A stretch of 64,000 bases of DNA from an uncultured Ligilactobacillus sp. (GTDB lineage: Bacteria; Bacillota; Bacilli; Lactobacillales; Lactobacillaceae). The number at the start of each line of letters is the position of its first letter. The first letter of the stretch is position 1. Location: NCBI GenBank assembly GCA_944326135.1, contig CALVCU010000005.1, forward strand, positions 1 to 64,000. The letters are read 5' to 3'. A program made the translations under genes and the position numbers. Below the pieces are notes generated by a model that saw nothing but the letters and a program-made list of their open reading frames with translations, had not been told where the DNA came from and ran no database searches. Positions 61,370 to 62,875 of this stretch are shown piece after piece.

Positions 61370-61376
61370 TTATTAA

Positions 61377-61412
61377 ACAAGAGATGTGATAACTCACATC
61401 TCTTGTTTTTTT
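61377..61412. terminator. Bidirectional terminator between dltD and apbE
   Basis: 13-bp stem ACAAGAGATGTGA/TCACATCTCTTGT with a tetraloop and T-run. The apbE stop codon (61394-61396) and its last sense codons lie in the right arm. Confidence 0.9.
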
Positions 61413-62305
61413 ATAAATTCGTTAATTGTATGATCTTTATATACAAAAATTGATCGTAATAGACTAGGATTGAAATTTGTAATTTTGTTATTAAAAAATA
61501 ATCGGCTAGATTCAATTTCACCTGCAAGTGAAGTTGTACAAAAGACAGTTACAGACATTAAATTAGTTGAATAGGGGAAACCAGTTTTAGAGTCTAAAAT
61601 ATGGTGAAATGTTTTTCCATTTTTAATAAATTGTCGTTCATAAATACCAGATGTTACAACAGAGCAGGGAGGAGTGATAACATTCTTAATTGCTTCTCCT
61701 CTTTTTTTCCATGGATCTTGAATGCCAATTCGCCATAATCCATCACTATGTAAGGGACAATTACCAATTAATAATAAATTTCCGCCTAAATTTATTATTC
61801 CTGATTTAATGCCATAACTTTGCCATAGATTTTTTAAGCGATCAGCTATATATCCTTTTCCGATAGCGCCTAAATCTAATTGCATATTTTTTCGTTTTAA
61901 ATAAACATTATTGTTTGGCAAAATTTCAATATCTTCAGGATTTATTATTTTTTTTAATTTTTCAATTTCGTTTGGAAATGGAATTTTAGCGTTTCGTGTT
62001 CCAATATCCCATGCTTTTACTAATGGACCGATTGCAACATTAAATCCAAAATTTTGTAGACTTATTTCTTTTGATATCTTTATTAAATCGTATGTTGGAT
62101 CAGAAACTTTAACTGCTTTTTTTCCTGAATTCAAATTAAGTTTACTGATTTCAGAATCGTTTTTATAAATTGAAAAAATCTTATCATAGTAATTAACAAT
62201 TTTTTTTGCTGGTTCAAAAATCACTTTCGATTGTTTATTGAAAACTGTAAAAGAAACATTAGTACCTAATGCTCTAAAAGAGTAATTATATGTTTTTATG
62301 CTCAT
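61394..62305 (-). CDS. apbE: FAD:protein FMN transferase ApbE
   Basis: ApbE splits FAD and attaches FMN through a phosphoester bond to a Thr or Ser in target proteins. The 303 residues have the N-terminal RALGTNVSF, a central FNVAIGPLVKAWDIG, the FAD-binding DLGAIGKGYIADRL, INLGGNLLLIG and HHILDSKTGFPYS. The C-terminal metal-binding motif, usually A-D-x-x-x-T, reads AGEIESS here. There is no signal peptide or lipobox, so it acts in the cytosol. It starts 9 bases after the stop of the PAS gene on the same strand, with AAGGAGAG before its ATG, indicating one operon. Confidence 0.93.
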   Translation of the reverse strand: MSIKTYNYSFRALGTNVSFTVFNKQSKVIFEPAKKIVNYYDKIFSIYKNDSEISKLNLNSGKKAVKVSDPTYDLIKISKEISLQNFGFNVAIGPLVKAWDIGTRNAKIPFPNEIEKLKKIINPEDIEILPNNNVYLKRKNMQLDLGAIGKGYIADRLKNLWQSYGIKSGIINLGGNLLLIGNCPLHSDGLWRIGIQDPWKKRGEAIKNVITPPCSVVTSGIYERQFIKNGKTFHHILDSKTGFPYSTNLMSVTVFCTTSLAGEIESSRLFFNNKITNFNPSLLRSIFVYKDHTINEFIKKQEM

Positions 62306-62314
62306 AATCTCTCC

Positions 62315-62875
62315 TTAAATTTCAGATGCCCCGGAAATTGCATCACTATCAGTGTCAGAATTTAAATCTAAAATGTCTTGTTCTACCATTTTGCGGTATT
62401 TTTCTTGATTTTTATCACTGTAATGAAAACTTGATTCTTGGTTTGTATCTAAATTTTTATTTTGTGATTCTATGAAGCCACCGTATCTATATTTATCAAT
62501 TAATCCAGTAATGTTTTCTGTAATTTGCATACATCCTAGATAATGTTTTTTATTATCTTTGATGCTAACTAATTTTAAATTGAAATATTGATCATCTACT
62601 TTCAATGCACGTTCAAATTGATCCATTTTATTGTGACGAAACCTTTCCAATATATCAAACATAGATGGTAAATTTGTAAAGTCTAATTGAGAATTAACTT
62701 TTTCTCCAATTTTATAATTATTTGAGAGTGGATTGATAACAAATTTTAAATGGCCTGTTTGATCTATAAAACGAATTTCAATTGGTAATCCTTCAAGAAT
62801 AAAATTGAGTTTTTTAATATCAATTTTTCCATGTATCATTTTAAATTCATTCTCTATATGATTATTGTTATTCAT
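62315..62875 (-). CDS. PAS-domain protein with a C-terminal flavinylation motif
   Basis: The 186-residue protein has a PAS-like core (about 18-130: LNFILEGLPIEIRFIDQTGH, then a helical middle and GCMQITENITGLI), similar in pattern to the PAS_10/DUF438-type domain. A polar linker (about 135-175) ends in DSDTDSDAISGASEI. Residues 178-184, DAISGAS, match the ApbE target consensus D-x-x-(S/T)-G-A-(T/S), making Ser184 the predicted FMN acceptor. apbE lies immediately downstream in the same operon. No signal peptide is present. The family function is unknown. A sensor or redox relay with covalent FMN is inference. Confidence 0.8.
   Translation of the reverse strand: MNNNNHIENEFKMIHGKIDIKKLNFILEGLPIEIRFIDQTGHLKFVINPLSNNYKIGEKVNSQLDFTNLPSMFDILERFRHNKMDQFERALKVDDQYFNLKLVSIKDNKKHYLGCMQITENITGLIDKYRYGGFIESQNKNLDTNQESSFHYSDKNQEKYRKMVEQDILDLNSDTDSDAISGASEI

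Follow-up and report, generated by a model that had tools for sequence, protein, structure and literature searches.

We describe a two-gene locus in the window, the whole 64,000-nucleotide stretch of Ligilactobacillus DNA analysed here, in which the gene for a 186-aa PAS protein with a C-terminal flavinylation motif directly precedes apbE. The best reading of this pair, which we hold to have an even chance of being right, is a cytosolic electron relay with covalently bound FMN that serves a fumarate-reductase-type enzyme. The features of the locus are as follows.

62315..62875, (-) strand: gene for the PAS-tail protein, 186 aa, ATG start, predicted ApbE substrate (ORF list, PAS_10 match, homologues)
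62507..62809, (-) strand: PAS_10 domain, residues 23-123 (Pfam PF13596, model core, Foldseek)
62324..62344, (-) strand: flavinylation motif DAISGAS, residues 178-184, with the codon of the predicted acceptor Ser184 at 62324-62326 (sequence)
62310..62316, (-) strand: ribosome-binding site AAGGAGA of apbE, overlapping the PAS stop codon (read from the sequence)
61394..62305, (-) strand: apbE, FAD:protein FMN transferase, 303 aa, without signal peptide (PF02424 profile)
61375..61408, (+) strand: 15-pair stem followed by a T run, terminator-like on the + strand (scan)

The PAS protein matched PAS_10 (PF13596) at 24.9 bits against a gathering cut-off of 22.1, and this was its only domain in a Pfam scan, which found neither FMN_red (PF03358) nor FMN_bind (PF04205) in it. 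Its C-terminus reads ...SDTDSDAISGASEI, and the final nine residues, DAISGASEI, follow at residues 178-184 the published ApbE acceptor motif D-x-x-[ST]-G-A-[ST] (PMC12052999, in excerpt). The preliminary description of this DNA had placed a PAS-like protein ending in DAISGASEI at 62315-62875, 9 bases before apbE, and the ORF list and Pfam confirmed this; the gap spans 62306-62314, with apbE downstream of the PAS gene on the same strand. The apbE product scored 229.7 bits with the ApbE profile PF02424 (Pfam cut-off 25.6) and contained the signature stretches DLGAIGKGY (DLGA..KG), LGGN, TSGIYER and HHILD (HHI.D..TG); the closest PDB relative noted was 7esa (E 5.6e-49). Its C-terminal signature is GEIESSRLF, as against GDGLSTATF in FmnB, and the Asp and Thr near the ApbE C-terminus are presumably the metal site. 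Glu in place of the Listeria FmnB Asp (GEIE..RLF versus GDGLST) was seen in most of the listed ApbEs of a 73-row lactic set.

One neighbouring gene converges on apbE, and we take it to be the last of a dlt-type operon; the terminator-like stem lies between the convergent ends of this upstream + strand gene and apbE. The gene beyond the PAS end, presumably penicillin-binding-protein-like, points away from the PAS gene. A promoter scan returned 8 sites versus 13.2 expected, and a PHROGs search gave nothing informative. Near their N-termini, the highest Kyte-Doolittle mean over 17 residues is 0.30 in ApbE and 0.76 in the PAS protein, so both start without a hydrophobic segment and, from their sequences, look cytosolic. 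This hydropathy supports the earlier claim of a cytosolic system and rules out a secreted one; the usual secreted ApbE carries a signal peptide or lipobox, unlike the ApbE of the window.

In the proposed mechanism, ApbE would move FMN from FAD onto Ser184 of the PAS C-terminal tail, and the PAS fold would position the tethered flavin, dock the protein on a partner, or both. The flavin would then hand reducing equivalents to a soluble flavoprotein of the fumarate-reductase or ene-reductase type, the likeliest acceptor being the own genome's 447-aa flavocytochrome-c-family enzyme, which is encoded away from the PAS gene. Electrons would come from a different reductase or from reduced flavin in free form; the donor is placed elsewhere because the NAD(P)H-oxidising FMN_red domain, fused before PAS in the commonest relatives, is absent in the window lineage.

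The first step was approached through the motif content of the own genome (1.52 Mb, 97.67% complete). A profile search found one ApbE in it, and a superset codon pattern, which takes in every spelling of the strict motif plus out-of-frame and non-S/T codons, matched once on both strands together, in the PAS tail. The single-contig genome G283 of the same species likewise had one ApbE and one pattern match, and the other 24 genomes of the genus had 2 to 28 matches each. With the pattern reversed as a control, the own genome gave 0 matches and G283 gave 6, so it is the absence of rival sites that counts here, not enrichment. Within the window, a relaxed motif pattern matched 7 times versus 3.8 expected, a number reached in 6 of 100 shuffles. 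Searches of the own genome at E 0.001 found no FMN_bind and no FMN_red, and other genomes of the window's architecture had FMN_red matches only in open frames of at most 219 aa. The weak FMN_red match of G283 is a 183-aa reductase-like ORF, and no link was seen for it.

The motif is also conserved within Ligilactobacillus. The DAISGASE end was invariant in five more distant relatives whose PAS proteins are 43-53% identical to that of the window, and pairwise dN/dS among four of these was 0.02-0.04 in all 6 pairs; for the tail alone it was 0.02-0.03 in 4 pairs, the other 2 giving no value owing to saturated dS. These values point to strong purifying selection on the PAS-tail gene. Named loci, comprising two of L. 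aviarius, one of L. araffinosus and those of two Candidatus species, had the motif and an adjoining apbE in 5/5 cases; these loci (L180-L184) seem to come from the genomes already represented by L003-L007, so that they contribute names but no independent cases. A chance motif was ruled out by the sole genome site, the clade invariance, the adjacency to apbE and the purifying selection.

A PAS query matched 77 of 397 Lactobacillaceae genomes, and the resulting survey comprised 84 loci with 86 PAS ORFs. Adjacency was defined as within 1500 bases, and the flanks of the loci measured about 1.5 to 3.5 kb, some being ended by contig ends; in two loci (L094 and L102) ApbE lay about 1.8 kb away and was scored as not adjacent. 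Motif and adjacent apbE occurred together in 42 ORFs, a motif without adjacency in 9, adjacency without a motif in 0, and neither in 35 (Fisher p=5e-16, relatedness ignored). All strict motifs in these ORFs fell after the PAS domain, and the 25 PAS ORFs with an N-terminal extension all lacked both the motif and an adjacent apbE. An ApbE match was present in 68 of the 69 PAS-match genomes outside the genus, those of G081 and G108 being weaker (4e-15 and 5e-13); the sole genome without one at E 0.001 (G050) holds only a motif-less DUF438-PAS. Among the distinct tails examined there were 175 copies of the strict motif, with Ser as the acceptor in 172; ApbE is reported to prefer Thr (excerpts of PMC12052999).

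Outside the family, the strict motif was found in 11 of the 13 apbE-adjacent FMN_red-PAS proteins examined (11 loci plus the plasmid loci L252 and L253). The other two (L163 and L252, the latter on an Enterococcus faecium plasmid) each lacked it and carried the variant D-x-x-[ST]-S-A-S three times instead. The expected tracking of the motif with an adjacent apbE thus held in 42/42 cases within Lactobacillaceae and was looser beyond, where these two loci have the variant. The repeat tails concerned (L163:1924-3183(+) and L252:7626-8846(+)), both beside apbE, possibly mark a variant ApbE specificity.

The PAS protein had been named the obvious local target of the neighbouring ApbE, and the single ApbE, the single motif site and the 42/42 adjacency bear this out. 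It could nevertheless be a mere neighbour, with ApbE modifying another protein via an unrecognised site and the terminal motif unused: the whole-genome search covered the strict motif, as distinct from relaxed forms such as D-x-x-[ST]-S-A-S, the strict motif is missing in 2/13 of the apbE-adjacent FMN_red-PAS proteins outside the family, and in eleven genomes of the genus no strict-motif protein was found next to apbE. Against the sole strict genome site, the clade invariance, the 42/42 adjacency and the strong purifying selection, we consider this highly improbable. Judged from these sequence comparisons and from published experiments on two tailed Lactococcus FMN_red proteins (PMC11334425), FMN would very probably be transferred to Ser184 by the neighbouring ApbE.

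The relatives of the pair fell into several architectures. The window's own, PAS-tail plus apbE, was present in seven genomes of the genus and at 12 loci in four other genus groups. The commonest relatives have an FMN_red-PAS-tail protein beside a second FMN_red and ApbE; in the survey, apbE was adjacent to 23 of the 26 FMN_red-PAS-tail ORFs, which usually lie beside a second FMN_red. Six genomes of the genus have an FMN_red-tail protein plus apbE without PAS. Nine genomes drawn from these six and the eleven with no strict-motif protein found beside apbE have a pair of FMN_red and FMN_red-PAS-tail genes elsewhere in the genome (L233-L241), so ApbE targets can lie in trans. The DUF438-type PAS proteins had neither a motif nor an adjacent apbE. 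Of the 20 loci taken after a class-level search, 11 have FMN_red, FMN_red-PAS and ApbE, and they are located in five other families of the order (L160-L163, L165, L167-L171) and in another order (L178); the same set occurs on the Lactococcus lactis plasmid pAV60 and on an Enterococcus faecium plasmid.

Modules were also combined in longer chains. One protein of L094 joins FMN_red, PAS_10, FMN_bind and FAD_binding_2 in a single chain (Pfam). The ORFs L094:2578-5640(+) and L102:1136-4204(-), of about 1020 aa, contain FMN_red, PAS_10, a motif, FMN_bind with a motif, and FAD_binding_2; for L102, of like length to L094, the positions of FMN_red, PAS and motif come from local profiles only. The ApbE of L102 (5953-6904(+)) is split over two ORFs, in a genome (G308) with 8% contamination. 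At L062, an FMN_red-FAD_binding_2-FMN_bind protein is encoded beside an FMN_red-PAS-tail protein and ApbE, and L078 has a similar arrangement, judged by length and motif. Six strict motifs within a tail of about 110 residues were seen in the PAS-tail proteins L100:3143-3865(-), L101:3282-4019(-) and L109:3013-3747(-). Two FMN_red-tail proteins with five and seven motifs (L029:363-1427(+) and L056:51-1232(+)) lie beside a motif-less separate PAS protein, and these arrangements are perhaps split versions of the fused FMN_red-PAS form.

An AlphaFold2 model of the window PAS protein, built from six rows, had a mean pLDDT of 62, with about 80 in the core and below 50 in much of the tail. Its best Foldseek hits were the DUF438-PAS structures 3cax and 2qkp, which were also the closest solved PAS folds by sequence (profile A1, E 9e-30 and 8e-26, respectively). 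The model confirms the PAS fold and is silent on ligand or docking; given the low pLDDT, no claim on a pocket or docking is made from it. The LOV signature is the NCRFLQ cysteine motif; it is absent, the sole Cys of the protein being C115 in YLGCMQ, and a LOV photoreceptor was rejected.

PAS domains often sense redox via flavin or haem, and this counts for a covalent-flavin sensor of redox or oxygen, in which the FMN on Ser184 would fold back into the pocket of the PAS domain and, depending on its redox state, alter the partner-binding surface of that domain, so that the protein would be a regulator and not a carrier. Foldseek hits below the closest relatives include the haem PAS of Aer2, LOV domains and the FAD-PAS of NifL, and the window clade has a single motif behind a conserved spacer (residues FHY and YR), which a docked flavin fits as well as a free relay. 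An engineered LOV domain, a member of the PAS superfamily, was flavinylated with ApbE and can hold the attached FMN in its pocket (excerpts of PMC10722498). However, the tails of the surveyed relatives vary in length and carry up to six motifs, which is easier to square with a relay than with a sensor that has a single pocket; the fusion partners observed are reductases and domains of the fumarate-reductase type and not output domains, and the window protein has no Pfam domain beyond PAS_10 and lacks NCRFLQ. We regard a sensor as rather unlikely. We lean instead towards a PAS-FMN unit that would move electrons as a soluble relay, because the PAS-tail unit is elsewhere fused to NAD(P)H-type FMN reductases and to FAD reductases and has up to six sites.

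The own genome's 447-aa enzyme matched the flavocytochrome c model NF005064 narrowly (542.9 versus a cut-off of 542) and TIGR01813 at 472 versus 285, and Pfam found no FMN_bind in it. Of the 26 genus genomes compared, 24 combined ApbE with a strongly matching FAD_binding_2 enzyme (best E at most 2.3e-81) and 2 lacked both; these two ApbE-less genomes (G163 and G296), which reach only 8e-7 and 5e-6, may share one loss. The link to fumarate reductase is indirect: the FAD_binding_2 gene lay away from the PAS gene in 5/5 of the PAS-type genomes read (L222-L226, among ten neighbourhoods read), on another contig or, in G283, at a distance of about 0.68 Mb. Two other genomes of the genus share one neighbour of the flavocytochrome-c-type gene, an apparent fumarase by our assumption, and two PAS-type genomes share another, which we take to be an apparent malolactic enzyme nearby.

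The flavinylated PAS protein might instead be a generic flavin anchor that feeds several cytosolic flavin-dependent acceptors, such as ene-reductases, iron or quinone reduction and the removal of peroxide or oxygen, without a fumarate reductase as its dedicated partner. PAS-tail and FMN_red-tail genes are indeed found in varied neighbourhoods, and pyruvate-oxidase-like enzymes of the genus too have strict motifs close to their C-terminus, yet ApbE and the strong FAD_binding_2 enzyme co-occur without exception in the 26 genomes, and the L094 and L062 fusions point toward fumarate-reductase-type enzymes. We consider such a generic role unlikely. For the relay, an enzyme of the fumarate-reductase type may tentatively be named as the electron acceptor. 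The pyruvate-oxidase-like thiamine enzymes, with two strict motifs each, are L245:1891-3735(-), L246:5373-7217(+) and L247:651-2504(-), in the genus genomes G375, G358 and G320; TPP_enzyme_N/M/C was identified by Pfam in L246 and L247, and L245 was assigned by likeness. They may represent one more type of ApbE substrate.

In a tree of 73 ApbE rows, PAS-tail loci occupied four separate clades, and the well-supported branches force four changes of the PAS-tail label, which may be gains or losses; the window clade nests among Lactobacillaceae ApbEs. Within two other genus groups, PAS-tail loci were sister to FMN_red-PAS loci (supports 99/96 and 92/74), and this points to a reductase domain lost more than once. 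A tree of 136 PAS rows gave the window clade a stem of 3.07 changes/column and set it, with unstable placement, on the side of tail-less PAS domains. When a subset of 50 PAS rows was chosen, a branch (97/99.6) set the other tail PAS domains apart, with the window clade outside this group, yet a single clade of all tail PAS domains was not rejected (p-AU 0.454). The window clade may have arisen by truncation of an FMN_red-PAS ancestor or even by an independent recruitment of its PAS domain, and the PAS trees do not decide between the two.

We propose, with reserve, that these PAS domains form an unnamed class of cytosolic ApbE substrate: a soluble flavin relay of lactic acid bacteria with 1-6 covalently flavinylated tail sites, which would have dropped its NAD(P)H-reductase domain on several occasions and would serve fumarate-reductase-type enzymes in trans. 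If true, a cytosolic family with flavins on a tail behind PAS would be a new carrier type and would hint at the role of PAS_10 beside FMN reductases, a combination seen in Lactobacillaceae, in other families of the order and on Lactococcus lactis and Enterococcus faecium plasmids. It would also point to how fermentative bacteria could carry out fumarate reduction independently of a membrane chain. The window pair would be its minimal version, its genome having yielded a single ApbE and a single strict motif site.

Several known systems resemble the pair in part. The FMN_red-FAD_binding_2-FMN_bind proteins of L062 and L243 share the modules FMN_red, motif-bearing FMN_bind and FAD reductase, with ApbE near in L062; they have the motif in FMN_bind and no PAS, unlike the window protein. 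We take them to resemble the Lactiplantibacillus hydroxycinnamate reductase HcrAB, and no paper characterising HcrAB was among the literature matches listed. The DUF438-PAS_10 proteins (3cax, 2qkp) have the same fold as the window PAS but lack the motif and an adjacent apbE, and the FMN_bind proteins of the NqrC, RnfG and PplA type carry PF04205, which the window protein does not. Described ApbE substrates lie mostly outside the cytosol (PMC12052999, PMC8238504 and PMC11334425, in excerpt). A cytosolic ApbE acts with a soluble fumarate reductase in Klebsiella (excerpts of PMC12052999), where the fumarate reductase itself is modified, whereas the predicted substrate in the window is a separate PAS protein. 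The open-licence PMC text matches listed included no natural flavinylated PAS protein.

The nearest published relatives are the flavinylated FMN_red proteins. According to excerpts of Huang et al. 2024 (PMC11334425), FMN_red (PF03358) proteins, mostly from Firmicutes, are extended at the C-terminus by a stretch that holds one to two motif-like sequences and have a linked apbE, and for two Lactococcus species the tailed FMN_red protein became flavinylated in E. coli when the cognate apbE was supplied, dependent on the predicted Ser/Thr. The term 'PAS domain' is absent from the main text of that paper. A relative from an L. lactis plasmid (WP_011915228.1) has FMN_red, PAS_10 and two DATSGAS motifs and is encoded beside ApbE and a second FMN_red. 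The preliminary statement that no such pair had been described therefore holds at most for a PAS-only pair, since flavinylated tailed FMN_red proteins are published (PMC11334425, in excerpt) and the L. lactis plasmid relative has PAS. The window protein has in common with this family the motif-bearing C-terminal extension and the nearby apbE, and differs from it in consisting of PAS and tail only, with no FMN_red domain and no adjoining FMN_red gene. Because the FMN_red domain is absent, the window pair is filed as a new variant of ApbE substrate, outside the flavinylated FMN_red family.
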